DNA of 64,000 nucleotides from the NCBI GenBank assembly GCA_021737785.1, contig JAIPDI010000027.1, positions 1 through 64,000 of the forward strand, in the 5' to 3' direction. The notes beneath the pieces were generated by a model, which worked only from the letters and a program-made list of their open reading frames with translations, searched no databases and was not told the origin of the DNA. Below are positions 1,002 to 62,344 of this stretch, in pieces. How positions within the stretch are numbered: the first letter of the stretch is position 1; every line of letters starts with the position of its first letter. A program made the position numbers and the translations under genes. The DNA is from Deltaproteobacteria bacterium. GTDB lineage: Bacteria > Desulfobacterota > DSM-4660 > Desulfatiglandales > Desulfatiglandaceae.

Positions 1002-2336
1002 ATGAACAATAGAGGATGGACGAAACGGACAACCGTAGTTGCCGCCATGATTTTTGCCTTTTCCCTCGGCCTGGCCGGCAATGTTTCTGCCGAGGCTCCG
1101 GCTGCAAAAGCGGAAGCGGACGGAGCGCTCGAGATCAAAGGACAGGTCAAGGCGGTGTCAAACAAGGCCAAGACCATCTCTGTTACGGTAGGAGGCAAGG
1201 GCGTCGTCGTGGTCAGGTTCGATGATGCCACTGAATTCGTGAACTTCGAAAAGACGAAAGAGATCCAACCGCCGACCGGTGTTCTGGTCAAATATAAGAC
1301 GGTCGGTCCTGACAAGGTGGCAACCTATATCAAAAAAACCCTCATAACGCTGCCGAGCGGGGTGACGGAGATCAAGACCAAGGAAGTGGCCGAATTGGTC
1401 GCAAAAGGATCTGTTGAAGGAGATTATTGTCTGATTGATTCGAGACCTGCAAAGATCGCCGCTGCGGAACACATCCCTACTGCCGTTTCAATTCCGGTGG
1501 ATGTGCTTAAGGAGAAGGGGGAGAAGCTGCTCCCCTGTAATAAGGATAAGCTGATCATATTCTACTGCGGCGGCGTTACCTGAGGCATGAGTCCCAAATC
1601 CGCCGGTCTGGCGAAGAAATGGGGATGGAAGAATGTGCGGGTGTATATTGAAGGGATGCCTGCATGGAAAAAGAGCGGGAACTATACCGTATCCACGCCC
1701 GATTATGTGAGGACGGCCAATATCGTTCTGATCGATCTCCGGGCCCCCGCCGCCGTTGCCGCGGGCCACATCCCGAGGGCAGTGGGGCTTCCTGCAGGCA
1801 ATCTCGAGGCGGCCAAAGATTCATTTCCAGAGTCCTTGACAGCTCCGATCGTCTTTTACTCGGATAATTTGGATGAATCCGTAAGGGCGGTGAAGACCGC
1901 CCGCAGCTGGAGGTACAAGAACGTCACCCTCCTCGAATTTCCCGGGATCCTGGAGTGGCAGAAAAAGGGCTATGACGTCAAGACAGGGCCTGCAGCAACG
2001 GAAATCGTCTATATTCGGAAGCTGGAGCCGGGCGAAATCAGCATCCCCGACTTTGAGGCGGCCTTGAAAACCCAGGCCATTACGGTCGTTGATGTGCGCG
2101 CCCCTTCTGAATATGCTGCCGGACATTTTCCGGGGGCCATCAATATATCCCTTGATGAACTGCCCACGCGATTGGACCAAATCCCCAGAGACAAGTTTGT
2201 TGTGGTCCATTGCAGAACCGGTGTCAGAGGGGAGATGGCCTATCTGCTTCTCAAGGAAAAGGGCTTTGATGTGAAATACCTCAAGGCGGGATGCAAGTGC
2301 AACCTGGACGGGACCTATCTGATCTGGGAATTGTAA
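1002..2336 (+). CDS. Secreted triple-rhodanese protein, candidate selenoprotein (UGA194)
   Basis: Read through the UGA at 1581-1583 this is a 444-residue protein. Residues 1-30 are a signal peptide ending VSA. An all-beta stretch (about 38-115) precedes three rhodanese domains: about 130-225, 245-330 and 345-440. Domain 1 has C189-G-G-V-T-U194, where rhodanese relatives commonly have a second cysteine (C-x4-C). Domain 2 has no active-site cysteine (FYSDNLDE). Domain 3 has the catalytic C404 in HCRTGVR. Coding continues in the same frame immediately after UGA with good family sequence (SPKSAGLAKKWG). The in-frame ATG at 1587 has no usable ribosome site, and starting there would cut domain 1 in half. 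A GGAGG precedes the start at 1002. A sulfur- or selenium-transfer role in the periplasm is inferred. The alternative is a nonsense-mutated gene. Confidence 0.85.
1581..1626 (+). promoter_or_regulatory. UGA (Sec) codon and candidate bacterial SECIS
   Basis: UGA at 1581-1583 is followed by a hairpin with upper stem CGCC (1601-1604)/GGCG (1610-1613) and apical loop GGUCU (1605-1609). A lower stem can form between GUCCC (1591-1595) and GGGAU (1622-1626), across an internal loop. Twenty-one bases separate the UGA from the loop, within the range used for bacterial SECIS elements. The loop carries the GU that SelB recognises. The GGUCU loop is the one I recall from E. coli fdhF. Folding was done by eye. 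Confidence 0.75.
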
Positions 2337-2945: not shown

Positions 2946-3297
2946 CGGACCATGCGGTTTAAAAGGGAGGGCATAACTCCCTGTGAAGTCGGCGATACCG
3001 AGTAGGGATCCCCGGCCGTCATGAGTTGTCCATGTCCTGAGGCTGCGGCACGCTGATGGCAAGACACCCGCTTCTACACCCATTTCCGGAGTAACCTTCG
3101 AATTTTGGCGCGGTGCGAAAAGCCAATTCCCATTGTGAATCGACCTCCCCGATAGTTTAGAATCTTTTGTGGTAATCCCGCCTTGCGGGACACCCTGCAG
3201 AGAAGTTGGTGGCGTATGGGTAAGCGCCCGGAAAATTCCGGGAGTTGTACCAATACCTTTTTGGTTGCGGCTGTCAGGCCGCCTTGGAATCGTGTCC
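2946..3297. other. Gene-free stretch with small palindromes and a repeat copy
   Basis: No reading frame here looks coding. It holds two small palindromes: CCCGC-CTTG-CGGG near 3178, and CCCGGAAAATTCCGGG at 3227-3242. A copy of the dispersed motif TTTTTGGTTGCGGCTGTCAG begins at 3258. No clear promoter for the large cyclase gene was found. Confidence 0.5.
3251..3290 (+). repeat. Dispersed GGTTGCGGCTGT-AGGCCG hairpin motif, copy 1
   Basis: CAATACCTTTTTGGTTGCGG followed by CTGTCAGGCCGCC. A near copy lies at 43,098-43,140 and a related inverted one at about 190-222. The GCGGC/GCCGC arms form a short hairpin. Confidence 0.5.
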
Positions 3298-6200
3298 ATG
3301 AAATGTGAACGCTGCCAGTTTGAAAACCCCGAAGGAATGAACTTCTGCGGCAAATGCGGTCATCCCCTCTCCGTGCCATGCCCGAAGTGTGGACATGCCA
3401 GCCCTGCCGGGTCACAATCGTGCGAAAACTGCCACGAACCGCTGCCCGCAACGCCTTTTTCCATCTCTACAGATATGTCTCCTCATGAGTATACCCCTCG
3501 CTTCCTGAAGAAGGAAATCCTGAGACAAAAGAGCAGCCTTCAAGGCGAACGGAAGATCGTGACCGTCCTCTTTGCCGATGTGGCCGGATCTACGCGCATG
3601 TCGGGAAGGCTCGATCCTGAAGACATCCACGATATCATGGATGAGTGTTTTGACATCCTGGGTCAGGAGATCCATGGGGCCGGGGGGAGCATCAATCAGT
3701 ACACTGGAGACGGAATCATGGCCCTTTTCGGCGCGCCTACCGCCTATGCGGACCATATCCACCGGGCATGCCACGCAGCGCTTCGCATACAGGATCGCAT
3801 GAAGGCCTATGGGGAACAGGTACAGCGCCGTTATGATATCACTTTCCAGTTGCGGATCGGGATCAACACGGGGAAGGTGGTGGTGGGGGCCATCGGTATT
3901 GATTTGAGACGGGACTATACCGCTGCGGGCGAGACAACCAATCTGGCAGCCAGATTGCAGACCCTTGCCCCGCCGGGCGGGACATTCGTTTCCGAGAGGG
4001 TGAGAAACGGGGCGATCCGGCTTTTCAGGTTTCGAAGGGCAGGGTCATTCATGGTGAAAGGAAGGGATACGCCGCTTACCGCATATTCCCTGATTGGAGA
4101 GCGGAGGCATATACACCTGCTGAGAACTGATAAGGGGCGCTCCACACCGTTTTTCAACCGAAAAGACGAGCTTTCGGTAATGACGCATGTCCTGACGTCC
4201 GCCCTCGCGGGTGCATCCAGGATGGTGGCGGTGGTGGGAGAGGCGGGTATAGGGAAAACACGTCTGCTGGCTGCTTTTCGGGACGCCATCCGCATTGAAA
4301 AGGCCCTGATCCTGGAAGCTCGTTGTCTCCCCTATGGAGAGTCCACCGTCCTTTACCCGATAACCCAGATGTTCAGGACCTACTTTGAACTCCCGGAAAA
4401 TGAATGCCTTTCGGTGGCAAAAAAGCGGTTCCGGGACAGGATACGGGAGAAATCCCTGGTCTCTCGATTGGACAAGGTATGCGATCACCTTTCTCATTTG
4501 AGCGATGAAGGGCGCACCACTGTTTCATTCGAAGGAAGAAAGCGGTCAATATTTAGATCTCTACATTCGCTGGTAAGCGCCATAACGAGGGCAAAGCCGC
4601 TCATCCTCATATTTGACGACATGCAATGGGTCGATCAGACCACACGGGATTTTCTCCTTTTTCTCATCCGGACCGAGTCACCCGGCCCCCTGTTTATCGT
4701 CTGTTCAGGGCGAATGACCGAGAAGGCCTGGTGCCCGGACTCCCCCGAACGGGTTCTCCATCTCGGGCCGCTAACGGACGACGCTTCCCTCAATATATTT
4801 CATTCGGTCCTCGGTACGGAACTGCTGGATAAGACCATATCACAAAAGATCCTCGATCAGGCAGGGGGAAATCCCCTCTTCCTGGTGGAAATGGCGGAGA
4901 CCATCAGACACCGGAAACTCATGGTCTGCGATTCCCATGCATGCACCCTCACCTCGGAGGTGGAGGATCTCGAAATCCCCGAGACCATCAGAGACGTCTT
5001 GACGGCACGCCTGGATGCGCTTCCCGGACCCGCCAAACGGGTGGCTCAGCTGGCATCGGTCATCGGCGTCGAGTTTTCCCATGAGCTGCTGAAGCGTCTT
5101 TCAAGGGATCATGACCGCCTGAAACAACACCTGAAGTTTCTTGAAAAAGAAGGGATTATACACAAGACATCCTCTGATGTCGGGGGCAAATACGCATTTC
5201 ATCACCAGATGATGCAGGAGATTGCCTACCGAGGTCTGTTGCGCCGCAATCGGAGGGAGTATCACCGTCTGGTGGGCGAGGCCATGGAGAGACTGTATCG
5301 AGACGACCTTTCCAATCATGCCGGTTTCCTGGCCTATCACTTCTACCAGTCTCAGGACTGGCCCAAGGCGCTGGCCTATACTCTCCATGCGGGGGACCGG
5401 GCAAGGCGCTCGTTCTCCTGTCAGGAGGCCCTAGAGTGTTATGACAGGGCCCTGGATATCCTTCAAAGGGGGAGGTGGGACCACGCCCGGGAAAAGGCGC
5501 TGCAGATTTACAGATGGAAGGGGGGAATGCATTTCTGTGCAGGCCAGATGGAAAAAGGGAGATCCACCTTCAAAAAGATGTATTCCGAAGCAAAGGCCCT
5601 CAAAGACGATGAGGCAGAAGCAGAGGCGCTCTTTCGGCTGGGGTGGATCTCCTTTTACATGCACCATCCCCGTGCTGCCGTTGATTTCCTCCACAAGGCC
5701 ATTCGACAGAGCCGGGAACCGTCGCTTTCAGAGCCGCTCCTCAAGGCCACCAGTTTTTTGGGATTTGTCTATTCGGTCCTGGGTAGGTTGAAAGATGCCA
5801 GACCCCTCTTGTTTAAATCCGTTAAACTAAGTAAAGACGTTTCCAGCCTGGAAGGAAAGGCATGGAGTCTTTCGTATCTTATTCAGTATCATAACTGGAC
5901 CGGTGAGTTTGATAAGGCCCTGGCCATGTGTGATGAACTGCGGGTCCTGAACGAGACCATCCAGAGCCCCTTTTTTCATATCGTCCTTCATTTTCGCAAA
6001 GGCCTGGTATACGGGGCATTGGGGAGACTGGATGAGGCGGAACGTGTCCTCACAGAGGGTCTGAATCATCTGGAAATCGGAGATGAAAAATTCTGGAGAC
6101 CCCGTATGTTAAATACCCTCGGCTGGGTTTACAGCGAAGGGGGCCGGATGGAAAAGTCCCTGGAACTGAATCAACAATCGTTGGCAGAGGCCCTCCCCAC

Positions 6201-18932: not shown

Positions 18933-20393
18933 TCATTCATCATTCAAGCCGTAGATCCAGTCGAGCACCCTGCGGGCATGGGGGGTCAGGGCGGTCCCGG
19001 CATCTGAAACAGGGTAGGAAAAAAGGAGATGACACAGCCTTGAAAAGGAATCCCCAGAGATCCTCTCGCCGGTTCCTGATAGGGGCGGCCCATCCACCAC
19101 GACAAACTGGTTCTGGTTCCGGATATCCCGGTACCCTGTTCCCTCCCTGACAAACCGGACGGCCTTGTCTCTCGGCCCGGCCTCGTAGACGCCGGCCCGA
19201 AGCCCGAATCCCCGCACCTGTCGCCCATGGGGTGGAAAAAAGAGGAGGAGATGGCTCCCTTTCAGAGGCGTTTGATATCGCCTGTTCAGTTCTGCCACGT
19301 CTATCCGGTAGGGGAGATCCATGAACTCGAGGATATGGAATATGTCCAAGGGGATGATCCCGTTTTGGATATGGAGGAGCGAGACCATGGGAAACGCCCC
19401 GGTAAGGCGCGGGTTGATCTCGATGGGATAAACCCCTTCGGCCTTTTCATCGATCACGAAGTCGATTCCCAGGATCCCGCGGTATCCCAGGGCGGCCACA
19501 TATTTCCCGACCTTCTCGGCCTGTTTAATGGCCGCGGAACGAACCGCCGGAGCCCAGGGGTTCCCATCCCATACGTGGCCGCAGAATATGCCGTTCTCAG
19601 CGGGATTTGCGCAATAGGGGAGGTCGATGAGCTGTTTCTGGAGCCCTGATATCAGGATGCCGTGTCGCGTCACACAGACGGCCACGCTGGCCGCGATTCC
19701 CTTAACGAACCTACGGATCAGGGCAGATGTGAGACGGATATCCCGCCAGACATGCCCTTTCAACCGCTCCCTGAGCCGGTCATAGTCCTGTGCCGAACGG
19801 ATAAAGAAGGTCCCTCTCCCCCCGCCCTGGGCGATGTCCGGGAGCTGGACCACCAGCTCCGGTCCCAGGTCCCCGGCCCACACTGCGTAGTCCTTTTCAT
19901 GAAGGACTGCGATGGGTTGGATGGCGCCGGGCACCTGACAGAGATCCAGGTCCGCGGCCATCTGCTGAAAAAAGGCCCGCTCCCTGAGCCTGAGACGGAG
20001 GTCTGCCGGGTTGGCCAGGGGAATCCATCCCTCTTCCCTCGCCAGGTCCTTCAGATCCGGATAGCTCTGATACAGGAACAGGTACTTCAACCCCGGCAAA
20101 CTGTTCAGATAGCCCCTTGTCAGGGTATGGGCAAGGAGGGAGGCGGAATCGCGGCTCTGTTCCGGGAGCGTTCCCCCGGCTTCTTCCAGGCAGAAGATGT
20201 CGGTCCGTTTTCTCAGAAGGGGGAGGTCGGCGGTTCTGCTGACGGTTGCCACATGATAGGAGTCGAGAAAATAGGCGGGGACAATCCGTGAAAAGGCCGT
20301 TATGCTCACCCCGACCAAGCTGCCGGCAAGGGCTTGAAACCGTTTCCTGACGTGCTCCAACTCCTGCAAGAACATCGGCGTTACCCCGGCCAC
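18933..20393 (-). CDS. ATP-grasp ligase of unknown substrate
   Basis: A 486-residue protein whose middle third is an ATP-grasp fold: the ATP/Mg region IDFVIDEKAEGVYPIEINPR is clear, with LVVQLPDIAQGGGRGTFF as the nucleotide-binding loop. ATP-grasp enzymes join a carboxylate to an amine through an acyl phosphate. The N-terminal 130 residues and C-terminal 120 residues are not recognised. It is the last gene of a minus-strand run with an oligopeptide transporter, two other ATP-grasp enzymes and a radical SAM enzyme. It lies 18 bases after the transporter ATPase gene, so it is most likely part of that operon. The substrate is unknown. Confidence 0.75.
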   Translation of the reverse strand: MAGVTPMFLQELEHVRKRFQALAGSLVGVSITAFSRIVPAYFLDSYHVATVSRTADLPLLRKRTDIFCLEEAGGTLPEQSRDSASLLAHTLTRGYLNSLPGLKYLFLYQSYPDLKDLAREEGWIPLANPADLRLRLRERAFFQQMAADLDLCQVPGAIQPIAVLHEKDYAVWAGDLGPELVVQLPDIAQGGGRGTFFIRSAQDYDRLRERLKGHVWRDIRLTSALIRRFVKGIAASVAVCVTRHGILISGLQKQLIDLPYCANPAENGIFCGHVWDGNPWAPAVRSAAIKQAEKVGKYVAALGYRGILGIDFVIDEKAEGVYPIEINPRLTGAFPMVSLLHIQNGIIPLDIFHILEFMDLPYRIDVAELNRRYQTPLKGSHLLLFFPPHGRQVRGFGLRAGVYEAGPRDKAVRFVREGTGYRDIRNQNQFVVVDGPPLSGTGERISGDSFSRLCHLLFSYPVSDAGTALTPHARRVLDWIYGLNDE

Positions 20394-20411
20394 CGGACCC
20401 TCACAGCCGGG

Positions 20412-21449
20412 TCATTGGCCTTCGGCCAGACCATATGAAAAGGGGTTCAGACTGCTCTCACTGCTCCCCTGGCGAAAACAGGCGACCCAGCAGCCGGTCT
20501 TGATCTCGGTCAATCCGGGTTCTTTTCGGGCGCACAGGTCATTATCGGCGACCGCGCATCTCGGATAGAAGATGCACCCGTTGTCCTCTCTGTCCTCCTG
20601 ATCCTTGACGAGAAGGGTCCCGTACCGTCTGGCGTCTTTGCTGTGTCCGAACTTGGGAACGGCATCGATCAGGGCCTGGGTATAGGGGTGCCGGGGATTC
20701 TGGATGACCCCCTCCGCCGGGCCCAGCTCCACCAGATGCCCACGGTAGATAACGGCGATCCGATCACAGAGGTATCGGGCTGCGGCCAGACTGTGGGTAA
20801 TGAACATCTGGGTGACCCCGAGGTTCTTCCTCATGGTCAGCAGGATGTTGAATATCTGGGCCGAAATAGAGGCATCCAACATGGAGGTGGGCTCGTCCGC
20901 AATGACGAACTCGGGATTCAGGACCATGGCCCTGGCAATGGCCACCCGCTGCCGCTGGCCCCCGCTGAGTCGATGAGGATATCTGTAGAGATAATCATCG
21001 GGAGGTGAGAGACCGACCGCTTTTAAGGCTTCTCTGACCCTGTCCTTTCTATCGGAAGCCTTCCCCATCCGGTGGATTTTCAACGGCTCGGATACCGTAT
21101 CATAGATGGATCGCTGGGGATTCAGAGACTGATACGGATCTTGAAAGATCATCTGGACCTTTCGACGGAAGGCCTTAAGGGACCGCCCCTTTAATCTGCT
21201 CACCTCATGGGTGTCCAGGAATATGCGTCCGGACGTCATCTCCTCCAGTCTGACAATCAACCGTCCAGCGGTGGTCTTGCCGCTGCCGCTTTCTCCCACC
21301 AGCCCGAATATCTCCCCCTTAAATATATCGAGGGAAATGCGGTTGAGGGCAATGACGTCCTTCCCCGAACCCCGGAAAAGGTTTCCCTTGCCCCTGTAGA
21401 TCTTGTTGATGTTCCTCATCTGGAGAATCGGTCTGTTTTCTTCAGCCAT
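20412..21449 (-). CDS. Oligopeptide/dipeptide ABC transporter ATPase (OppF/DppF type)
   Basis: A 345-residue ATP-binding subunit. Walker A is GLVGESGSGKTTAGR, the signature motif is HRLSGGQRQRVAIARAMV, and Walker B is FVIADEPTSMLD. The C-terminal oligopeptide-transporter extension carries cysteines (GCIFYPRCAVADNDLC). The start at 21,449 (MAEENRP) is used because the longer frame overlaps the preceding gene with non-family sequence. It powers peptide uptake together with the OppD-type partner encoded just upstream. Confidence 0.92.
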   Translation of the reverse strand: MAEENRPILQMRNINKIYRGKGNLFRGSGKDVIALNRISLDIFKGEIFGLVGESGSGKTTAGRLIVRLEEMTSGRIFLDTHEVSRLKGRSLKAFRRKVQMIFQDPYQSLNPQRSIYDTVSEPLKIHRMGKASDRKDRVREALKAVGLSPPDDYLYRYPHRLSGGQRQRVAIARAMVLNPEFVIADEPTSMLDASISAQIFNILLTMRKNLGVTQMFITHSLAAARYLCDRIAVIYRGHLVELGPAEGVIQNPRHPYTQALIDAVPKFGHSKDARRYGTLLVKDQEDREDNGCIFYPRCAVADNDLCARKEPGLTEIKTGCWVACFRQGSSESSLNPFSYGLAEGQ

Positions 21450-21481
21450 TTTCAAGCTTCCAGTTTCCAATCTCGATCCCT

Positions 21482-22435
21482 TCAGACCCTGCAACAGAGA
21501 ACCCTGTGCCCTGAACCGATGTCCACCCACTGCGGGGGGGTACCTTTGCAGAACGTCTGGGACTCTGGACAGCGATCACAGAAACGGCACCCGATCGGCG
21601 GGCTGATCAGATTGGGCGTTTCCCCCGGAATCGGTATCAGGTCGGTCTTCTTGCCGGTCAGTGTGGGAAATGATGAGAGGAGGGCCTTTGTATAGGGATG
21701 GGCCGGAGTTTCAAACACGGTCTGCCACGGCCCGAGTTCCACCAACTGACCCGCATACATGACGCCGATGTCGTGACACATATCCGCCACGATGGAGATA
21801 TCGTGGGAGATGAATATGATGCCGATATTGAATTCCCGTTGCAGGGCCCTCACCTCATCCAGGATCTGATCCTGGACAATGACATCCAGGGCAGTGGTGG
21901 GTTCGTCGGCAATGATCACCTTGGGATGGCAGGCCAATGCCATGGCGATGACCGCCCGCTGTTTCATTCCGCCGCTATACTGGTGAGGGTAGTCTCTCAG
22001 ACGTTCCCGCGGGATCCCTACCAGATCGAAAAGCCCCTCCACCTGGGCAAGGGCCGCGTCCTTATCGAGGGATAAATTGTGGACCAGTATCGCCTCTGCG
22101 ATCTGATCTCCCACCCGTTGCACCGGGTTCAGGGCGTTCATGGCGGCCTGAAAGATCATGGCCATCTCCCGCCACCGGATGCGGCGTTTCTCCTCTTCCG
22201 ACATGGCCAGGGTGTTTCTTCCTTCCAGCAGAATGCGACCGTTTCTGACCGAGCCGTTGGGCGGAAGCAGCCCCATGAGGGCCATGCCGATGGTGGTCTT
22301 GCCGCAGCCAGATTCCCCTACCAGGCCGAGGGACTGTCCCTGCTCCAAGGCAAAGGACACCCCTTCCACGGCCTTCACGTAGCCTTTCCGTGTATTATAA
22401 CCGATGCTGATGTTGTCTACCTCTAATAGGGCCAT
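21482..22435 (-). CDS. Oligopeptide/dipeptide ABC transporter ATPase (OppD/DppD type)
   Basis: A 317-residue ATPase with Walker A GLVGESGCGKTTIGMAL, signature YSGGMKQRAVIAMALACHP and Walker B IIADEPTTALDV. It ends in the family cysteine cluster GCRFCDRCPESQTFC, which in some members binds iron-sulfur or zinc. Its ATG follows the stop of the upstream permease gene with no gap, indicating coupled translation. It pairs with the OppF-type ATPase. Confidence 0.93.
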   Translation of the reverse strand: MALLEVDNISIGYNTRKGYVKAVEGVSFALEQGQSLGLVGESGCGKTTIGMALMGLLPPNGSVRNGRILLEGRNTLAMSEEEKRRIRWREMAMIFQAAMNALNPVQRVGDQIAEAILVHNLSLDKDAALAQVEGLFDLVGIPRERLRDYPHQYSGGMKQRAVIAMALACHPKVIIADEPTTALDVIVQDQILDEVRALQREFNIGIIFISHDISIVADMCHDIGVMYAGQLVELGPWQTVFETPAHPYTKALLSSFPTLTGKKTDLIPIPGETPNLISPPIGCRFCDRCPESQTFCKGTPPQWVDIGSGHRVLCCRV

Positions 22436-23353
22436 CTAATCTGTCTGGTCCTCCTTCCTCAGCCTCGGATCGAGCACCTCGTCCATGGCCCTTCCCAACA
22501 TGTAAAAGGAAAGGGTGATCAACGAGATGCACATGCCCGGAGGGAGAAGCCAATAGGGCGCCTTGAACATATGGCCGGTCTTCCATACCCATTGGAGCAT
22601 CATGCCCCAGCTTACGGTCCCGGGATCTCCAAATCCCAGGAAGGCGAGGGCGGCCTCGGTGATAATGGCGGACGTGACCCTGAAGGTCATGAACAGGAAG
22701 GCGAGGGGAAGGACATTGGGCATTATATGCTGAAAAATAATCCGGGAATGGGAGGCTCCCGCCACCTTGGCAGCCTCGATAAAAGGCCGCTGCTTCAGTG
22801 AAAGGGTTTGGCCCCGGATGATCCGGGAGACCCCGGGCCACCTGAACAGGGCGATAATCAGGACAATGGTCCAGATATTGAGCTGACCGAATACCGCGGA
22901 AAGGATCAGGACCACCAGAAGGGTCGGCATGACCATGATCATGTCGGCCAGTCTCATGAGAAGGGTATCCATAAGCCGGCCCATGTATCCGGCCGTCATA
23001 CCGATGGCAACACCCAGGACAATACTCATGACCGCGGCTGAGATGCCCACCATGAAGGCCACCCGGGCCCCTGCCAGGAGTTGGCTCAGGATATCCCGAC
23101 CCATGAAGTCCGTCCCCAGCCAGTGTTTCAGGCTGGGAGGCGTGCAGCAGGTGATGTCCGGATCAACCCCGGTCATCGGGTTGTACATCGGATCTATCCA
23201 TGGTGGGATATAGCTGCACACGGCCATCAGGGCAAATAGGATCAGGAGAACCAGTCCGATCCTTCCCACGAGGCTCTGCTTGAATATGGACCAGCCTTCC
23301 AGGAAGCTGTTCAGCAGGGGATATTTTTCTCTGGCTGTCATAGGATCACTCAA
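22436..23353 (-). CDS. Oligopeptide ABC transporter permease (OppC/DppC type)
   Basis: A 305-residue inner-membrane permease with an N-terminal cytoplasmic tail, a first membrane segment (LVGRIGLVLLILFALMAVCS), a periplasmic loop and five more segments. The cytoplasmic EAA-like loop (EAAKVAGASHSRIIFQHIMP) contacts the ATPases. It is longer than OppB in its periplasmic loop (about 50-95), as usual for OppC. Confidence 0.93.
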   Translation of the reverse strand: MSDPMTAREKYPLLNSFLEGWSIFKQSLVGRIGLVLLILFALMAVCSYIPPWIDPMYNPMTGVDPDITCCTPPSLKHWLGTDFMGRDILSQLLAGARVAFMVGISAAVMSIVLGVAIGMTAGYMGRLMDTLLMRLADMIMVMPTLLVVLILSAVFGQLNIWTIVLIIALFRWPGVSRIIRGQTLSLKQRPFIEAAKVAGASHSRIIFQHIMPNVLPLAFLFMTFRVTSAIITEAALAFLGFGDPGTVSWGMMLQWVWKTGHMFKAPYWLLPPGMCISLITLSFYMLGRAMDEVLDPRLRKEDQTD

Positions 23354-23494
23354 ATCTCACTGCCGTGTCCGACGCCGATCGCTTTAAAATAACTTCAGGC
23401 ATTTTATCTACTTACCATTCTCAGGGTCCGCAACCCGCAATGGGTGATGGGTAACGCGTCCAAATTTCAAATATCTATGGTCAGGCATTTTCTG

Positions 23495-24472
23495 TTAATA
23501 CCGTATCCGCGGATCCAGATATGCATAGAGGACGTCCACCACCAAGTTGGAGACCAGGACCACTGCGGCAATCAGCAAGAAGGAGGCCTGGGCCAGGGGG
23601 TAATCGTTCTGGCTGACCGCGGACACCAGCTCCCTCCCGATGCCCGGCCAGGTGAAGACCGTCTCGGTCAATGCCCCCCCGTTGATGGAGAAGGCCAGGC
23701 TCAGGCCCACACTGGTGACCACCGGGAGGGCGGCGTTCGGGGCGGCATGCCGGTCCCGGATCACCTTTTCCTCAAGCCCTTTGGCCCTTGCGGTCAGTAT
23801 GTAGTCCTCTTTCAGGGTCTCCAGCATGCTGCTCCGCATGATCAGGAGGTAGGCCCCGAAGTGGATCAGGAAGAGGGTGGACAGGGGGAGGATCATGTGA
23901 TACGCGACATCCAAAGTCTTCCTAACAACGCCTGAATCCGGATCCAGCCATACGTCTTCCGAAATCATTCCGGTGATGGGGAACCAGTTAAACTTGTAGG
24001 AAAAGAGCCAGATCATGATGAGGGCAAGCCACGGCAAAAAGACCGTGTGGGTCACCAGGGCTCCGATGGTCAGGAAGGAATCGATCTTTTTTCCTTTGTG
24101 CCATGAAGCGATCTTGCCCAGGAATACGCCCACCAGTGCCGATAGTATAATGGATGTGGTGAACAACAGGACAGTGTTGGGGAGGCGGTTCCATATAATA
24201 TTGACCACCGGTTCCCCATAATGGAACGAAAATCCGAAATGACCGGTGAAAAAATTTTTGAGATAGACCAGATATTGTATTCCTAACGGCTTGTCCAGGC
24301 CCAGCTCGACCATGAGTCGATGGGCATCCTCAGGCGTCATATCCGGATCCACCATTCGCGATACCGGATCGCCCGGCGCCAGGCGGAACAGGAGGAAGAG
24401 CACCGTCAGGATGATGAAAAAGATAATGACGATCTGGACCAGTCTTCGGCCGATATATTTTCGCAGTTCCAT
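23495..24472 (-). CDS. Oligopeptide ABC transporter permease (OppB/DppB type)
   Basis: A 325-residue permease beginning MELRKYIGRRLVQIVIIFF, the standard OppB/DppB opening, with six membrane segments. The EAA-like loop is TARAKGLEEKVIRDRHAAPN and the C-terminus ends in the family pattern LYAYLDPRIRY. It stands between the binding protein gene and the OppC-type gene, separated by gaps of 97 and 141 bases that contain repeat words rather than promoters I could name. Confidence 0.93.
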   Translation of the reverse strand: MELRKYIGRRLVQIVIIFFIILTVLFLLFRLAPGDPVSRMVDPDMTPEDAHRLMVELGLDKPLGIQYLVYLKNFFTGHFGFSFHYGEPVVNIIWNRLPNTVLLFTTSIILSALVGVFLGKIASWHKGKKIDSFLTIGALVTHTVFLPWLALIMIWLFSYKFNWFPITGMISEDVWLDPDSGVVRKTLDVAYHMILPLSTLFLIHFGAYLLIMRSSMLETLKEDYILTARAKGLEEKVIRDRHAAPNAALPVVTSVGLSLAFSINGGALTETVFTWPGIGRELVSAVSQNDYPLAQASFLLIAAVVLVSNLVVDVLYAYLDPRIRY

Positions 24473-24479
24473 ATTTTCC

Positions 24480-24565
24480 CGCGTGGTGCATGGCGCAGAG
24501 CGCAGGGAGCAGGGGGCATGCAGGAAGACTTTCCGGTATGCACGATGCCCCTGGCGCTTTGCGCT
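24480..24565. repeat. GCGCAG/GGGCAT word repeats between transporter genes
   Basis: The gap between the binding protein and OppB genes consists of short repeated words (GCATGGCGCAGAGCGCAGGG, then AGCAGGGGGCATGCAG and GGCGCTTTGCGCTTAT). The style matches the words at 780-985 and 42,785-42,830. Confidence 0.5.
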
Positions 24566-24569
24566 TATA

Positions 24570-26309
24570 TCATTTGGCCGGTTTTAACTCGCAAAACGTC
24601 CAGACGCTGCCGATGCCCCCCAACATCTGAACCCATCCGGTAAACCGCCCTTTGCGTACGGCCTCAACCAGCTTCGGGTTGTAGAGGGGGAGATATGGGA
24701 CATCCTTCATGATGATCTTCTGCATCTCCCAAATCAATGCCTGCCGCTTGTCGCGGTCCATGGTGCGTGCGGATTCGTCGGCGATTTTGTCAAATTCCGG
24801 GTTGTTATACCCGCTCATATTCCATCCGCTGGGTTTGTCGTTGCGCGAGATGAAAAAATTCCGCAGGTAATCCGGGTCCAGGGAGAGATTGCCATATCCC
24901 AGGACAAATGCCTCAAATTCATGCCGGGCCTTTACCTGCTGCAGCAGTGCCCCGAAGGCCATCGGCTTGGAAAAAGCCGGGATGCCCAGCATCCTGAGCC
25001 ATTCCTGCATCATCATGCCGCACATGGCCCGGTGGGGGTCATAGTCGGCCGGAGGCGTCAAAATGGTGAATTTCTCCATGGGCCGGCCGTCCGGGTGCAT
25101 GATCCCATCGCCGTTCACCACCTTTCCCGAGGCCTCAACCGGATCGATCTGCCAGGTGTATCCCGCATCCCGAAGGATTTGAAAGGCCTTCCGGATACGC
25201 GCTTCCCTGTCGAGACCCACGGCGTATTTGGGAACATCCGGGCAGTACCAGAAGGTATTTCCCGCAGGGACGATGGAATACATCTTTGCCCCGTATCCCT
25301 GAAGGATCCGTTTGATGATGAAATCTTCATCCACCAGGGTGGCAACGGCCCTCCTCAGGTTCGGATCATTGAACGGCGGCTTCCTGACATTGAACCCCAT
25401 ATAGTAGAGGGAGCTCTTTTCGTTTTGAAATAACTCTATATCCGGATTGGCCCTCAAGTCCTCCATGTAACCGGGCTGAACGCCCCACCAGAACATATCG
25501 ATGCTCCCCTTCTTCAGGGCCAGAATGGCGGCGTCGGAGGTCCCGAAAATCTTGAAGATCACCCCGTCGATGTAGGGGCCCAGAAGTCGCCCATTGATGG
25601 TTTTACCGGTTCCGAAAAAATGGGGGTTCTTCTGAAGGAACAAATAAGATCCGTCCCGCCACTCCTTCAGAACGAACGGCCCGCTGCTGACCGGGATTTC
25701 TATTTTTTCATTGAGGAGCGTTCCCAGTGGCTTTTCGGTCTTTTTTGCGGCCTCAATCCGATCCACCCACTCTTTTTTCTGGACAATCGGGGTGGTCAGG
25801 CTTCGACTGACAAAGATGGCCTGCGGTTCCTTGAGGTAAAACTTTACCGTATGTTTGTCCGGGGTCTCTATCCTGTCGATGAAGTTCCACTTGGAATAAT
25901 ATTGCGGGATCTTGAACTCGTTGATGAAATTCGCCGTGAACGCCACATCCTCTGAGGTCAGTTCCGTGCCGTCAGACCACGTCGCGGGCCGGAGCTTGAT
26001 GGTATACGAGAGGTCTTTTTCATCAAAAAGGGGCTGTTCGGCCGCCAGCCAGGGAATCAGCATCAGGGTTTCCGGGTCCCGCACATAAAGGGGTTGGTAT
26101 AAAAGCCCCAGCACCTTTCGTGACCACGTATCGCTGGCCCGCCATACATTGAGGGTCTTGGGCTCTTCCAGAAAACCCATTTTGAGCATTTCTCCTGCAG
26201 CGGCATTGGAACCGGCAAAGAGAATGCCGGAAAATATCATGACCGCGCATGCGAGCATCAGGACCCAACCGCAGAAATCTTTCTCTCTTTTTTGATACAT
26301 AGGGTGCAT
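24570..26309 (-). CDS. Extracellular solute-binding protein, family 5 (peptide type)
   Basis: A 579-residue periplasmic protein. A signal peptide with a positively charged start and hydrophobic core precedes SNAAAGE. The family 5 fold is plain: PKTLNVWRASDTWS, LSYTIKLRPATWSDGTELTS, and a C-terminal AKTFDKIADES-like helix pattern. Family 5 proteins bind oligopeptides, dipeptides, nickel complexes and other ligands, so the substrate is not fixed. It is the receptor of the four-subunit transporter encoded immediately downstream. No lipoprotein cysteine is seen. Confidence 0.92.
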   Translation of the reverse strand: MHPMYQKREKDFCGWVLMLACAVMIFSGILFAGSNAAAGEMLKMGFLEEPKTLNVWRASDTWSRKVLGLLYQPLYVRDPETLMLIPWLAAEQPLFDEKDLSYTIKLRPATWSDGTELTSEDVAFTANFINEFKIPQYYSKWNFIDRIETPDKHTVKFYLKEPQAIFVSRSLTTPIVQKKEWVDRIEAAKKTEKPLGTLLNEKIEIPVSSGPFVLKEWRDGSYLFLQKNPHFFGTGKTINGRLLGPYIDGVIFKIFGTSDAAILALKKGSIDMFWWGVQPGYMEDLRANPDIELFQNEKSSLYYMGFNVRKPPFNDPNLRRAVATLVDEDFIIKRILQGYGAKMYSIVPAGNTFWYCPDVPKYAVGLDREARIRKAFQILRDAGYTWQIDPVEASGKVVNGDGIMHPDGRPMEKFTILTPPADYDPHRAMCGMMMQEWLRMLGIPAFSKPMAFGALLQQVKARHEFEAFVLGYGNLSLDPDYLRNFFISRNDKPSGWNMSGYNNPEFDKIADESARTMDRDKRQALIWEMQKIIMKDVPYLPLYNPKLVEAVRKGRFTGWVQMLGGIGSVWTFCELKPAK

Positions 26310-26363
26310 TGTTTTTCCCTTTCTTTGGTTAAATGGTTTTCTTCTTTATTGCGTTCGCCGAAA

Positions 26364-27359
26364 TCAGATCGTTCCTTTCATCTCAGCGACTTTTTGCTCA
26401 ATAAAATCGATAACAGCCACCTCCAATCGGACCTTGTCCAGCCGGTTGATGCGGGGGATGCCTCCCGGGCTGAGACAATTAATTTCTACCAGTTTGTCGC
26501 CGATCACGTCAACTCCCACGAAAAATAGGCCGTCCTCAACCAGTTTTTTCTTGATGGCCCGGCAGATCTCCCTCTCCGGATCGGTCAGATCGTGCTTGAA
26601 CGCCCTTGCCCCGGCGTGGATATTGGTCCTGAATTCTCCCTTACGGGGCCTTCGTTTCATGGCCCCCAGGATCTCTCCATTTAACAGGAGAATCCGGACA
26701 TCCCCCCCCATCCCCACCACATCCAGGTATTCCTGCACCATGATCGCCGCTCTCTCAGGATAGGAACGATAGGCCTTGACATAGTAATTGATGAGGGAGT
26801 GGAGGTTTTCCTGGTCCTTGACGCTCACCTTGATCACCCCTTCGCCCCCATATCTCTGAAGCGGCTTGACCACCATGGCCCCCCCGAAATCATTGATGAT
26901 TTTTCTGAGCCTCGCAGGATCTCTGGACACGTGGGTTTCCGGGATAATATCCGGAAAGTTGAGGATATAAAGCTTGCTGTTGGCCAGGATCTGGCCGGCG
27001 GCGCTGTTGATCATGAAGACCTTGTCGCTCACCGATGACAGAAATTCCATGGTCTGATAGACGATGGGCGGATTTTTTCTCAGAAAGAGGGCGTCCAGGT
27101 CGGAGATGGTCTCGAATACGAGTTCGTCCTTTTTGAGGCACTTGATGAGGGCGCGCCAGTATTGTCTCATGGAGAGGCCGGGGTCCACCGTGATGTTGCG
27201 CATCCTGGCGACCACCGCCTTTTTCCGGATGTAGATGTCATGGGGTTCGAGAAAATAGACGGAATGTCCCCTCTGGTTGCATTCATACATCAGGTGGCTG
27301 GTGGTCTCCATTTCCGGTTCAATGGATTCCAGCCGGTCCATCAGAAAGGCGATATGCAT
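26364..27359 (-). CDS. GshB-like ATP-grasp ligase
   Basis: A 331-residue protein related to prokaryotic glutathione synthetase: DRLESIEPEMETTSHLMYEC opens it like GshB, ILNFPDIIPETHVSRDPARL marks the middle, GGAMVVKPLQRYGGEGVIKV is the ATP loop, and FVGVDVIGDKLVEINCLSPG is the metal site. No glutamate-cysteine ligase gene is seen here, so true glutathione synthesis is doubtful. Its start lies 19 bases inside the end of the RimK-like gene. In this context it probably forms an amide bond in a short peptide-like product. Confidence 0.85.
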   Translation of the reverse strand: MHIAFLMDRLESIEPEMETTSHLMYECNQRGHSVYFLEPHDIYIRKKAVVARMRNITVDPGLSMRQYWRALIKCLKKDELVFETISDLDALFLRKNPPIVYQTMEFLSSVSDKVFMINSAAGQILANSKLYILNFPDIIPETHVSRDPARLRKIINDFGGAMVVKPLQRYGGEGVIKVSVKDQENLHSLINYYVKAYRSYPERAAIMVQEYLDVVGMGGDVRILLLNGEILGAMKRRPRKGEFRTNIHAGARAFKHDLTDPEREICRAIKKKLVEDGLFFVGVDVIGDKLVEINCLSPGGIPRINRLDKVRLEVAVIDFIEQKVAEMKGTI

Positions 27360-28243
27360 GGCTTCCCCATCATAATTTTGTGAGATACATATCCGATGAT
27401 CCGGGAGGCGATATCCACTCCGGTGGCCTGTTCCAGCCCCCTGAACCCTGGAGAATAATTGACCTCAATGATCTTCGGAGTCCCCTCTTTATCCACAATG
27501 ATGTCTGTCCCGGCAATCTCCAGGCCCAGGACCTCGGCCGAACGGACGGCCAGTTCCGACAGCTCCTCATCCAATGTGAGCCCTTTTCCCGATCCCGTCA
27601 AATGAATATTCGATCTGAAATCTCCTGCAAGGGGGGTCAATTCCATGGCGGCCACGACCTCCCCACCCACTACAAAGGCCCGGATATCTCTCCGGTTCTC
27701 GGGGATCAGGTACTCCTGAACCAGCACTCCCCGGGAATTGTCCTGGAGATTCTCCATGACAAAATCCGATGTGATTGCTGAATCGATACGGAGCACACCC
27801 TGGCCCTGCCTGCTGGAGGGCATCTTGGCCACCACCGGATAACCCCCAAGGGTTTCCGCGGCCTCTTGAGCCCCCCTTGCATTAACCGCCAGCAGTGTGT
27901 CCGGCACCGGAAGACCGGCCGCGGCCAGGGCCTGGAGACTCAGGAATTTATTTCGTGCCAGAAGGATCGCTTTAATGCCGTTGACCACAGCCACGCCCGA
28001 GAGTTCAAAATGACGTACCACCCCTAAGGCATAGTCGTTGATGGTCGCCCCGATCCTGGGGAGGAGGATATCCGGTTTGCCCCCACTCTCCACGGTCATC
28101 CCGGGTCGGCCGCCGATGATCTTTGGAAGGCAGTCCCTGGTGTGGATGAGCCTGGCCCGGTATCCTGACCGGGCTGCGGCCTCCATCAACCTCTGGTTGG
28201 GAGGGTATCGCTCGTCTTGTACGCTCAGGATTCCGATGTCCAT
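27341..28243 (-). CDS. RimK-type ATP-grasp ligase
   Basis: A 300-residue ATP-grasp enzyme of the RimK/LysX/MptN type, which add amino acids such as glutamate to a carboxylate. Landmarks are LLPRIGATINDYALGVVRHF, the ATP loop GYPVVAKMPSSRQGQGV, and metal-site residues in AGTDIIVDKEGTPKIIEVN. The ordinary RimK C-terminal extension is absent. It sits 12 bases after the radical SAM gene and overlaps the GshB-like gene, so the three are probably translated as a unit. No obvious carrier protein or precursor peptide is encoded nearby. Confidence 0.87.
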   Translation of the reverse strand: MDIGILSVQDERYPPNQRLMEAAARSGYRARLIHTRDCLPKIIGGRPGMTVESGGKPDILLPRIGATINDYALGVVRHFELSGVAVVNGIKAILLARNKFLSLQALAAAGLPVPDTLLAVNARGAQEAAETLGGYPVVAKMPSSRQGQGVLRIDSAITSDFVMENLQDNSRGVLVQEYLIPENRRDIRAFVVGGEVVAAMELTPLAGDFRSNIHLTGSGKGLTLDEELSELAVRSAEVLGLEIAGTDIIVDKEGTPKIIEVNYSPGFRGLEQATGVDIASRIIGYVSHKIMMGKPCISPF

Positions 28244-28255
28244 GTCTTGCGCCCG

Positions 28256-30022
28256 TCACCTGACCAGGGTCTCCAGCTCTGAAAGGATCTTCTCGGTTTC
28301 TGAACCCCGTTCACCGGCCCGGATCCCCTTTATACTCAACTGCAACCCTCTCTTCAATCGAAAAAGTTTTCTTATTTCTGCCGGAGCGTATCCTTCCCCC
28401 CGGAGGAGCTTGTAGATCTCCTCGACATAGGCCTGACCGTCGGTAAAGCTTTGGTCGACCCTTTCCACCATTTGTGCCATCAGCCGGGAGGCCTCCATCG
28501 AATCCATGGTATGATGCCGCCATGCCAGGCCGAGGCCTTCAAGGCCGAGGGTCTTTCTCTCCCGGTGCACCAGGGTGTTTCCGGTATAATAAAAGAGATA
28601 GGGATGATAATAGGGAAGCCCGCTCTGGTTTATGAATTGGATGGTCTCTGAAAAGGTATCCACGGTCTCGCCGGGATAGCCGATGATAAAACTCCCCCTG
28701 CTCTCAATGCCGTTATCGTTGAGCATCTGTATGGCTTTCAGGGATTGTTCCTTTTCCAGCCGCTTGTCCATATTGTCCAGGATGGTCTGGCTCCCCGATT
28801 CCAGCCCCAGATCCACGAATTCGCATCCGGACGCCTTCATGAGCCTCACCAGTTCCGGCCTCAAGGCGCTGGCCCGCGCAAATGACGACCAGGTAAACCC
28901 GAACCCCTGGGCGACCATCATCTCCAGCACGGACGTCATTCTTTCCCTGTTGGCAGTAAAATTGTCGTCGGTAAACCGGACGTGGGTGACAGACCCCAGC
29001 GCATCGATTCTCTTCAGCTCATCCTTCAGAACATCCATTGATTTGTAGTGGACCTTTGGAAACAGCCAGTGATAGGTGCAGAAACGACACCGGTAATAAC
29101 AGCCCCGGCTGCTGTTCACCGGAAGAATATTGCGGAGATAGTTTTTGGGGACCCGGTCCCATGCAATCGCGGTCTGGTCCATATGGATCTCTTCCTGTTC
29201 CCGCGGGGTGAAGACCATGCGCCCCTCTCCATTAAAATAGGCCAGATTGGGGACACAATCCAGATCCCGTCCCTGTCTCAGGGCCGCCAGGAGTTTCACC
29301 AGGGTCGCCTCTCCCATGGCCTCCACCACAAACGCATCCACATGGCCGTGAAAACCGCCCATGAAATCCAGGGTCTTATCTGAAAACCGCTCCCCATCAT
29401 TCAGGACCTTTTTGACCAGCATCCCCCCCGCAATAACCGGTACGTGCGGGGCGATCCGCTTGATAACCCCGCCCATTTCATTGATATCGTTCATGAAGAT
29501 GAAATTGGAAGAGATGCATACCGCCAGCGGATCCTCCTCAAGGAGGCCGGGAAGATCGGCCGTGGCATAGTTCTGGACAACGACCGGATCGTATCCGTGC
29601 GCGAGGAGGTATTGATAAAGATAGATGCCGTTGAGGGTCACGGTATTGGCCAGGGAATAGTGCTGCGTCACGTTCTCCGGGGTGATCTCTGGAATGTGGC
29701 GGCCGCATCTTACAAAATTCATCAGATCCAGGAGGTCCATGTACCGGCCGTCGATAAACAATAGGGATTCCATTATATTCCGGTGGACGCCCTTTTGAAT
29801 GGCCGAAAGGTCCAGGTCGGGAAAGCGGGCGGACTGTCGCTCGGCCCTCTCCTCGGCATCCGCCAGCTTACGCCTCAGGTGGGCGTCGGTATCCAACGGC
29901 TGGTTCTGGGCAATGACAATGACTCTCGGGTCTTTCAAGATCGGTTTCGGCCCCCTGCCTGTGATTCGCGGAATGGATTTCCGCGCATGGTAGGTAAAAC
30001 CGGGTCCGATGTCAATGGGCAT
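28256..30022 (-). CDS. B12-binding-domain radical SAM enzyme
   Basis: A 588-residue enzyme. An N-terminal extension of about 140 residues precedes a Rossmann-like region (about 150-260; AVCISSNFIFMN, VPVIAGGMLV) in the place of a cobalamin-binding domain. The radical SAM domain carries C308-x3-C312-x2-C315 (CYYRCRFC) for the 4Fe-4S cluster and continues with VRFTDDNFT and FIIGYPGETVDTFSE. Such enzymes commonly methylate or rearrange unactivated carbons, but some bind no B12. It is the first gene of the minus-strand ligase and transporter cluster, so it probably modifies the same compound. The product is unknown. Confidence 0.87.
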   Translation of the reverse strand: MPIDIGPGFTYHARKSIPRITGRGPKPILKDPRVIVIAQNQPLDTDAHLRRKLADAEERAERQSARFPDLDLSAIQKGVHRNIMESLLFIDGRYMDLLDLMNFVRCGRHIPEITPENVTQHYSLANTVTLNGIYLYQYLLAHGYDPVVVQNYATADLPGLLEEDPLAVCISSNFIFMNDINEMGGVIKRIAPHVPVIAGGMLVKKVLNDGERFSDKTLDFMGGFHGHVDAFVVEAMGEATLVKLLAALRQGRDLDCVPNLAYFNGEGRMVFTPREQEEIHMDQTAIAWDRVPKNYLRNILPVNSSRGCYYRCRFCTYHWLFPKVHYKSMDVLKDELKRIDALGSVTHVRFTDDNFTANRERMTSVLEMMVAQGFGFTWSSFARASALRPELVRLMKASGCEFVDLGLESGSQTILDNMDKRLEKEQSLKAIQMLNDNGIESRGSFIIGYPGETVDTFSETIQFINQSGLPYYHPYLFYYTGNTLVHRERKTLGLEGLGLAWRHHTMDSMEASRLMAQMVERVDQSFTDGQAYVEEIYKLLRGEGYAPAEIRKLFRLKRGLQLSIKGIRAGERGSETEKILSELETLVR

Positions 30023-57433: not shown

Positions 57434-60088
57434 CTACGCAATGAGCTGGTGCAGTCCCTGGATCAGGTCTTCGTATTCATCGCCCTTAAAACAGAACCTC
57501 AATTCCCGGAATTGCTCCCGTAACTTCAGGACCTGATCCAACACGCCGGCATTGTTGACAATCACATCATGCATCAACTGGGCGAGTGCTTGAAAATCCG
57601 CAGGCGCCATGCCGAACCGGGTCATCTCCGATACCCCCAGTCTGAGGGCCCCGGAGGCGGTGAACCCTTCCTCGTCGGTATTGGCCTGGTAATTACAGAT
57701 GATGTTGTTGGCCTCCAGACGGTCTGCAATCTCCGGCCCCCGGCTGTACCCCACATCCACCACCACCTGGTGGGTCTCGGTGAAGTCGATGTCCGGGTCC
57801 CCGGCCACCTCCAGCCCCGTCTCCTTGAGTGCCCGGGCAAAGGCCTTGGCATTGGCAATGACCATGGGTTGATAGGCATCTTTAAAATGGTTCATCTCAT
57901 AGGCGGCCATAAGGAGACCCAGGAGGGTTCCCAGGTGATGGTTGGACACGGATCCGGGAAAGGCCCGCCTCAGGAGAGACTCCCAGAGGGGGTATCGCTC
58001 ATCCTGTTCCTCGAAAGCACAGCCCACCACCCCCCGCTGGGTACCGAAATAGGTCTTGTGGGTAGAGCCGGTGACCAGGTCCGCCCCCTCGGCAAAGGGC
58101 TCCTGAAAGTGAGGACCGATGAGACCCAGTACGTGGGCCATGTCGTACATCACGATGGACGGGATCCCCTGATCGTCCAGGAACTGCCGGATCTCCGACA
58201 CCGGTTCCTTATGGAGGATCATGCTCTTGCCGAAGATAATGAGTTCGGGCCGGTAGCGATCGATCAGTTTCAGGGTGGCCGGGACATCCATCCGAAAGGG
58301 GTTGTCAACGAGGACAGGGAAGTTGACCACTGCCGGTCTCTCGGTCCGGGGATCCCGGGCCACATAGTCCTTCAAGGCCCCCATGGGCTGGGCGCTCAAG
58401 TGGCCCCCCTTACCGATATGGTTGTTCATGACCTGACGGATCCGTCTCGGCTCCTGTTTGCGATCGGCCCGGTTGAGGTAGTCCACCATGGCGCTGAACA
58501 CGGCCGTGTTGGCCATCTGACCGCTGATGAGCCGTGTCTCCACCTCCCCGCACCCTAAAAAGGCCTTCATCTCTCTTTCCACCAGCTCTTCCACTTCACC
58601 GATGAACCGGGTCCCCTGGTAATAAAAGATGTCCGCCTGGTAGAAGGCCGGGGATTTTCTATGCTCTGCATAGCGGAAGGCCGGGTCCATCACCGAAAGG
58701 AGGCGGGCCATGGGGGAGAGGGTCATTTCAGAGGGGATCAGGTTGATGCATTCCTGCTGCCGCCATACGGTGTTGCGGACGGCCTTTTCCATAAGCCGCC
58801 TAGCCAGGGACGGCCGGTCGTTGGAAGGAAGGTCATGCCCTGCCGGTGAATAATCCAACAGGATGGGCCGGGCATAGGGGGGGGCCTCCGACCGCATGTG
58901 AAACGGCACCACCACGGCATCCACCCTCTTGCCGCGAATCTCCACAGAGAGGCGTTCGGCATCCGGGATATCGCTGTCAATGTAGCAGAGGGCGATGGAA
59001 CGGAGTTCATGCTCCTCGACCAGTCTGGATTCGAGGCCTTCCCCTTCCACGCGCCAGAGGGGGACCGCGGTCCCGCTGGTCACATATCCCACCTCCTTGT
59101 TCCCCTTAAAGAGCGTGGCCCCTTCCCGGGCGATTCCCCGGCCGATGACGGCCAGGTGCCGGATCATGCGGGGGAGGTTCTGAATGGTGGAAAAATCCCC
59201 GGACAGGATGTGCTTGAGGGCGGCCTGCTGCCGGGTCAGGGCCTCCCTCCCGATGAAGTCCCCTTTGAGCGGGGAAAAGCTCACGGCGAATCTGGAGAGG
59301 GGGCAGGCCATGGCAGGGATCTCCCTGCCGTCACGGTCGTGGCCCAGTTCGTGGCCGTAGAGGGGGAGTCCTGCCTCCAGGCGGAGGGTATCCCGGGCCC
59401 CCAGACCGATGGGTGTGGCGCCCCTGGACAGGATCAGGTCCCACAGCATAAGTCCGTCCTTTCGGTCGGCAAAGAGTTCAAAGCAGAGGGGTTCGCCCGT
59501 ATATCCGGTTCTGGAGACCTTTACCAAGGCGCCGGAAACGGTCACCTGGCTGACCGCATTGCGCATCGGTTCAGGAAGGCGACCCGCCGTGATGATCTCT
59601 TCCATCAGGGCGCGGGACCGGGGTCCCTGAAGGGCGAGCATGACGATCCCTTCACTCTGGTCGGTCAATTCCACATCATCAAATTCCCTTGACAGGGGGA
59701 CCAGGTGATCCCAGTCCTTTTCCCGGTTGGCTGCATTGACCACCAACAGATATTCCTCCTCCACAAACCGGTAGAGATAGGCGTCGTCCACGGCCCCGCC
59801 CGTGGGAGTGGGGATGAGGGTGTACTGGGCGCCCGCTGTCCGGATGTCGAGGGCCTCTGCGTTGTTGGTGAGGACATGCTGGAGAAATTTGAGGGCCCCC
59901 TTGCCCCGGACGATGAACCGGCCCATATGGGATACGTCAAAGAGTCCGGCCCCCTTCCGGGTGGCCAGGTGTTCTCCAATAATGCCGGTCGGATACAAAA
60001 CGGGCATGTCCCAGCCCCCGAATTCCACCATTTTGGCGCCCAAGGCCACGTGTCGATCGTGGAACAGCGTTTTTTTCAGTTCGGTCAT
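57434..60088 (-). CDS. GcvT-serine hydroxymethyltransferase-like fusion
   Basis: An 884-residue fusion. Residues 1-410 are aminomethyltransferase, the T protein of glycine cleavage (FHDRHVALGAKMVEFGGWDM, LFDVSHMGRF, GYTGEPLCFELF, LRLEAGLPLYGHEL). Residues about 440-884 are a diverged serine hydroxymethyltransferase-like domain with the PLP lysine K678 in GSTHKTYFGTQRG and opening INLIPSEMTLSPMARLLSVM. Both use tetrahydrofolate one-carbon units, so the fusion could pass methylene-THF directly between glycine cleavage and glycine-serine exchange. It is transcribed divergently from gcvH-gcvPA-gcvPB. AAGGAGA precedes the start. Whether the SHMT half is active is not shown, since its substrate residues are diverged. 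Confidence 0.92.
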   Translation of the reverse strand: MTELKKTLFHDRHVALGAKMVEFGGWDMPVLYPTGIIGEHLATRKGAGLFDVSHMGRFIVRGKGALKFLQHVLTNNAEALDIRTAGAQYTLIPTPTGGAVDDAYLYRFVEEEYLLVVNAANREKDWDHLVPLSREFDDVELTDQSEGIVMLALQGPRSRALMEEIITAGRLPEPMRNAVSQVTVSGALVKVSRTGYTGEPLCFELFADRKDGLMLWDLILSRGATPIGLGARDTLRLEAGLPLYGHELGHDRDGREIPAMACPLSRFAVSFSPLKGDFIGREALTRQQAALKHILSGDFSTIQNLPRMIRHLAVIGRGIAREGATLFKGNKEVGYVTSGTAVPLWRVEGEGLESRLVEEHELRSIALCYIDSDIPDAERLSVEIRGKRVDAVVVPFHMRSEAPPYARPILLDYSPAGHDLPSNDRPSLARRLMEKAVRNTVWRQQECINLIPSEMTLSPMARLLSVMDPAFRYAEHRKSPAFYQADIFYYQGTRFIGEVEELVEREMKAFLGCGEVETRLISGQMANTAVFSAMVDYLNRADRKQEPRRIRQVMNNHIGKGGHLSAQPMGALKDYVARDPRTERPAVVNFPVLVDNPFRMDVPATLKLIDRYRPELIIFGKSMILHKEPVSEIRQFLDDQGIPSIVMYDMAHVLGLIGPHFQEPFAEGADLVTGSTHKTYFGTQRGVVGCAFEEQDERYPLWESLLRRAFPGSVSNHHLGTLLGLLMAAYEMNHFKDAYQPMVIANAKAFARALKETGLEVAGDPDIDFTETHQVVVDVGYSRGPEIADRLEANNIICNYQANTDEEGFTASGALRLGVSEMTRFGMAPADFQALAQLMHDVIVNNAGVLDQVLKLREQFRELRFCFKGDEYEDLIQGLHQLIA

Positions 60089-62203: not shown

Positions 62204-62227
62204 AGATGAACGGGCTGCAATTTGTTA

Positions 62228-62312
62228 TCACACAGAGCCACAAAGCCCACAAAGAAGAAAATATCAAATTCTGACAACTACAGAATCTTCGTGCCTTGGT
62301 GTCTTTGTGTGA
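62228..62312. repeat. Imperfect inverted repeat between gcvPA and gcvPB
   Basis: TCACACAGAGCCACAAAGCC and onward (62,228-62,255) is complementary, with a few mismatches, to 62,286-62,312 (reading TCTTCGTGCCTTGGTGTCTT then TGTGTGA). The CTTTGTG-type words look like part of a dispersed family. The structure separates two genes of one operon and could act in RNA processing or just be a repeat insertion. Confidence 0.6.
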
Positions 62313-62344
62313 GCATATTTTTCCCGGTTTAGAGAGGTGATATC

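Follow-up and report, generated by a model that had tools for sequence, protein, structure and literature searches.

Rhodanese selenoproteins and the gene in the window

Bacterial selenoproteins with rhodanese-like domains are known in five forms, listed in a 2026 review as UxxS, UxxG, CxU, UxxG and, for TsoB, UxxxxU (PMC13188914), in line with the first-pass annotation of the present locus, which mentions such proteins as reported in bacterial selenoproteome surveys. Form 1, with the motif UxxS, is a rhodanese-like domain-containing selenoprotein with WP_010941598.1 as its type (PMC13188914), while TsoB (NF045694), a rhodanese/DsbD fusion-like selenoprotein, is credited there to Haft and Tolstoy 2025 (PMC13188914, ref. 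64). Sulfur disproportionators carry a gene cluster named YTD, with the order yedE-tusA-dsrE-chp (PMC12998232, PMC9751629).

We analyzed a 64,000-nucleotide stretch of DNA (hereafter the window) from a Desulfobacterota-like bacterium, in which the ORF at 1002-2336 holds a single in-frame UGA, at 1581-1583 (codon 194). The frame is open again after this TGA, up to a TAA at 2334-2336, and the read-through product has 444 residues, as the first-pass annotation had read it. The features of the gene and of its predicted product are the following:

991-998, + strand: ribosome-binding site AAGGAGGG upstream of ATG 1002 (sequence)
1002-2336, + strand: gene of a very probable three-domain rhodanese selenoprotein, predicted secreted, 444 aa with Sec194 (ORF, Pfam, homologues)
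1362-1697, + strand: rhodanese domain 1, Sec-bearing, aa about 121-232 (Pfam; NF045694 match 124-227)
1566-1568, + strand: Cys189, rhodanese nucleophile position (retained throughout the family, in Sec and Cys members alike)
1581-1583, + strand: UGA codon 194, very probably read as Sec, +5 after Cys189, in the loop C-G-G-V-T-U (58 UGA, 21 Cys, 0 other)
1707-1991, + strand: rhodanese domain 2, aa about 236-330, without catalytic Cys (FYSDN) (alignment)
2037-2306, + strand: rhodanese domain 3, aa about 346-435, canonical loop C404-R-T-G-V-R409 (Pfam, alignment)

The Pfam family PF00581 finds three rhodanese stretches in the product (E = 3.5e-42, 143 bits against a gathering score of 22.2). Residues 1-30 appear to form a signal-peptide-like N-terminus, followed by an N-terminal region without assignment. 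A catalytic Cys is present in the active-site loops of domain 1 (Cys189) and domain 3 (Cys404) and is missing from domain 2. The AlphaFold2 model, built from five input sequences, was poor (mean pLDDT 51, pTM 0.31).

Elsewhere in the window, an 884-aa ORF at 57434-60088 looks by sequence like a fusion of glycine cleavage T-protein and serine hydroxymethyltransferase and is adjoined by gcvP-like genes (60863-63802), and a stretch at 18933-30022 encodes ATP-grasp proteins, a radical SAM protein and an oligopeptide ABC transporter, a cluster that may serve to produce a modified peptide and to export it.

Among the described forms, TsoB resembles the window protein in the loop, where the second of its two Sec residues takes the same site (FYUAGLAUVRSDSAARVA in TsoB, FYCGGVTUGMSPKSAGLA in the window), and has a SECIS of the same geometry. 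The TsoB profile NF045694 matches with 62 bits over aa 124-227, that is, over the rhodanese part only and far under its cut-off of 805. TsoB has two Sec residues (UxxxxU), one of them at the nucleophile, and a single rhodanese domain fused to a DsbD-thioredoxin part, whereas the window protein keeps Cys189, has one Sec and contains three rhodanese domains with no DsbD part. Form 3, represented by NF041203 (rhodanese_LYCAU), shares the rhodanese fold and a Sec near a Cys, but its motif is CxU rather than CxxxxU, and its profile reaches 44 bits (cut-off 115), with the best match in domain 3. Form 1 was compared by its motif, which is matched by U194-G-M-S197; because U-G-M-S fits UxxS, the triple-rhodanese C-x4-U family may already be recorded under this form. 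The window protein, whose selenocysteine reading is strongly supported, is a further case of a known kind of bacterial selenoprotein. The suggestion in the first-pass annotation that the triple-domain secreted form may be new has become doubtful, since a UxxS rhodanese selenoprotein and TsoB are both already listed (PMC13188914).

A UGA codon that exchanges with cysteine

Homologues were drawn from the order, the phylum, one further family (f49, possibly Geobacteraceae) and named contigs. At the site of codon 194, UGA is found in 58 distinct genes or domains (among them that of the window, and two entries from the tandem C-x4-Sec domains of a single locus, L048), Cys in 21 and anything else in none, a count that leaves out the remote paralogues L096 and the second gene of L048, as well as L146, which has no clear motif. 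The first-pass annotation had expected only Cys or Sec at this position, and the alignment bears this out. The motif reads U-A-L-S in the f49 homologues, and the delta proteobacterium NaphS2 is among the organisms with a close homologue (L024). Some of the Cys homologues sit in genomes with selB, and Sec is therefore not essential for function.

This distribution bears on whether the UGA is simply a defect, that is, a nonsense mutation, the mark of a pseudogene, or a TGC or TGT misread as TGA. Translation table 11 does split the ORF, and the assembly behind the window is a draft in 96 contigs. However, the same codon is UGA in dozens of genomes, in homologues down to 37% identity, which excludes the sequencing error that the first-pass annotation had raised as a concern; moreover, the frames on either side of the UGA are intact, and the codon is followed by a conserved SECIS that is absent from Cys homologues. 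We thus regard a defect of any of these kinds as extremely improbable.

The machinery that would decode such a codon is encoded in the host genome, as the first-pass annotation had proposed to check: searches found selA (617 bits), selB (397 bits) and selD (373 bits), together with a tRNA-Sec (selC) with a UCA anticodon. The host selD itself has an in-frame TGA followed by ASKLPPGDLD, which is the usual place of Sec in SelD. SelB scored above the cut-off in 54 of the 56 carrier genomes, the other two (G027 and G082) being drafts in 570 and 660 contigs. A general reassignment of UGA was considered and rejected, given a dedicated tRNA-Sec in the genome and a site that is matched by Cys alone.

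The first-pass annotation had placed the putative Sec at a cysteine position of the rhodanese domain. This holds in that homologues have Cys there, but the position is not that of the rhodanese nucleophile, which is Cys189. When the loop of domain 1 (C189-G-G-V-T-U194) is set against the canonical loop of domain 3 (C404-R-T-G-V-R409), and in the family alignment, the Sec or Cys occupies the site of the last Arg of the canonical CxxxxR loop, and the nucleophile Cys is always retained. As judged from these alignments, Sec194 is located five residues after Cys189, in a C-x4-U pair. Since the nucleophile Cys is present in every Sec and Cys member, the Cys-Sec pair was added to the rhodanese loop and the catalytic Cys was not replaced.

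A relative at L048 (G065:C3, minus strand) has two tandem rhodanese domains that each carry C-x4-Sec (CEGATU and CEGYTU), with UGA at locus offsets 1653 and 1965 and a SECIS-like hairpin of its own after each.

The hairpin downstream of the UGA

Immediately downstream of the UGA lies a hairpin, supported by comparison across Sec and Cys homologues, with the following parts:

1581-1625, + strand: bacterial SECIS element, UGA included
about 1590-1595 with 1621-1625, + strand: SECIS lower stem
1601-1604 with 1610-1613, + strand: SECIS upper stem, with apical loop GGUCU at 1605-1609

The loop GGUCU starts 21 nt past the UGA, at the distance given in the first-pass annotation, which corresponds to an offset of +24 counted from the U of the UGA. 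In a first set of homologues, all 48 UGA sequences (window included) form a stem of 4 bp or more closing a 5-nt loop in the same register, while in any one other register a hairpin occurs in at most 4 of the 48; the stem is found in none of the 12 Cys genes. Position 2 of the loop is G in each of these 48 UGA sequences, and the pair +20/+32 (1601/1613) appears among UGA sequences as C-G, U-A, U-G or G-C, a compensatory pattern. In a further clade, the 10 Sec genes all have stems of 6 bp or more, and a 4-bp stem is present in 2 of 9 Cys genes, both lacking the G at loop position 2. With both sets joined, hairpin and loop G occur together in 58/58 UGA genes and in no Cys gene. Furthermore, the codons +7 to +10 after the UGA are all invariant in the nine closest sequences; of the 154 columns with an invariant residue in the rest of the gene, only 8 have an invariant codon as well. 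As the hairpin tracks Sec and its codons are frozen, it is conserved beyond the needs of the protein.

Folding the window alone gave no such signal: in four stretches, the sequence folded no better than its shuffles (z between -1.0 and +0.8), and support for the hairpin therefore rests on comparison and not on energy. The SECIS proposed in the first-pass annotation is accordingly upheld by the comparison, and its folding is not above that of shuffled sequence. The Rfam SECIS model (RF00031) found no match genome-wide, nor did cmscan over 1400-1800, and a control with RF00031 was also silent, making these searches uninformative.

The hairpin also weighs on the reading of the locus as two genes, with UGA as a true stop and a second protein starting at ATG 1587. 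A 249-aa ORF does begin at this ATG, 3 nt past the UGA. Nevertheless, it has no good ribosome site and a start there would cut the rhodanese active-site loop, objections already made in the first-pass annotation; the 21 Cys homologues are continuous proteins, many UGA homologues have Leu or another codon in place of the ATG, and the SECIS would be left unexplained. Two separate proteins are hence hardly conceivable. Given the conserved UGA, the Sec/Cys exchange, the SECIS that tracks Sec and the presence of the decoding genes, UGA 1581 is almost certainly decoded as selenocysteine, and its decoding would be carried out by SelB and tRNA-Sec, directed by the hairpin.

Operon context and possible function

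Two conserved neighbors flank the rhodanese gene in the window:

339-716, + strand: DsrE-family protein, conserved neighbor, 125 aa from ATG 339 (mechanical ORF 240-716) (Pfam PF02635; cluster c0, 8 loci)
2532-2945, + strand: small TPR-like protein, predicted exported, conserved neighbor (weak TPR matches; cluster c1, 7 loci)

In close relatives, the gene belongs to an operon with the order mvhD-hdrA-hdrA-hdrC-CCG-dsrE-Sec rhodanese-TPR-yedE/tsuA, where genes are named by likeness (mvhD-like, HdrA-like, HdrC-like, CCG protein, YedE/FdhT-TsuA-type transporter). The operon is seen at L097 (1342-10386) and is similar in L098, L099, L100, L102 and L023, and in L022 from the CCG gene on only. The window retains dsrE and the TPR gene, while the yedE/tsuA transporter does not adjoin the rhodanese gene there; the contig begins at window base 1, upstream of dsrE, so that the hdr region is out of view. 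The arrangement in close relatives partly resembles the YTD cluster, as a YedE-like transporter and DsrE lie beside the Sec rhodanese, but TusA was not found among the conserved neighbors of the relatives, which have Hdr subunits and the Sec rhodanese instead.

The HdrA-like gene of L098 (about 3281-5239) has two in-frame stops, where the closest relatives mostly have Glu and in one case Asp. Checked as candidates for recoding, the stops proved to be TAA codons, and they are probably an assembly error or the sign of a decayed copy.

The hdr-dsrE-rhodanese-TPR-yedE/tsuA operon of close relatives suggests that the rhodanese selenoprotein handles sulfane sulfur outside the cytoplasm, a role to which we give about an even chance. 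In such a role, the Cys189-Sec194 pair would be a fast redox centre: sulfane sulfur (thiosulfate, polysulfide or persulfide) would be taken up as a Cys persulfide, whose sulfur would be released or reduced through a selenenylsulfide, and domain 3 would hand sulfur on. The rhodanese could then feed the YedE/TsuA-type importer, DsrE and the Hdr-like complex, which are encoded alongside it in close relatives. The host genome has a gene for a DsbD-like protein that lacks any rhodanese domain, and a DsbD-like protein may re-reduce the Cys-Sec pair, by analogy with the fused TsoB. More distant relatives do not keep the operon context, and what the model says on sulfur import is therefore not general.

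The same neighbors and domains weigh on two other roles for a genuine Sec. Cys-Sec pairs typically occur in redox enzymes, and in TsoB the equivalent UxxxxU domain is fused with DsbD and a thioredoxin-like domain, as would be expected if the C-x4-U domain were a general extracytoplasmic thiol oxidoreductase or a peroxide-reducing centre rather than a site of sulfur transfer. Yet the rhodanese fold, the second canonical sulfurtransferase loop in domain 3 and the sulfur-trafficking genes that adjoin in relatives make this role rather unlikely. The protein could also act on selenium or oxyanions (selenite, tellurite, selenium delivery) and not on sulfane sulfur. The transporter of the relatives matches the YedE/FdhT selenium-metabolism family somewhat better than TsuA (133 bits with a cut-off of 350, and 107 bits with a cut-off of 400, respectively), and in Geobacter the rhodanese gene extH lies within a selenite-reduction cluster (PMC5877670). 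The match to ExtH is nevertheless negligible (12 bits) and the DsrE and Hdr-type neighbors indicate sulfur, so that we consider a selenium role unlikely.

Returning to sulfane sulfur, we tentatively propose, as a possibility short of an even chance, that these genes belong to a large Desulfobacterota family, undescribed as such, of exported triple-rhodanese Cys-x4-Sec selenoproteins that would act as an extracytoplasmic polysulfide/sulfane-sulfur reductase-transferase, feeding a YedE/TsuA-DsrE-Hdr route by which sulfur is disproportionated or respired. Standard gene calling splits the gene at the UGA, so that a truncated rhodanese and a separate fragment are easily annotated in place of its product. 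The operon in close relatives ties the Sec rhodanese to YedE/DsrE/Hdr sulfur trafficking. With a very probable Sec replacing the conserved loop Arg beside an intact nucleophile, the family would offer a case, open to testing, in which a sulfurtransferase fold has become a Cys-Sec redox centre.
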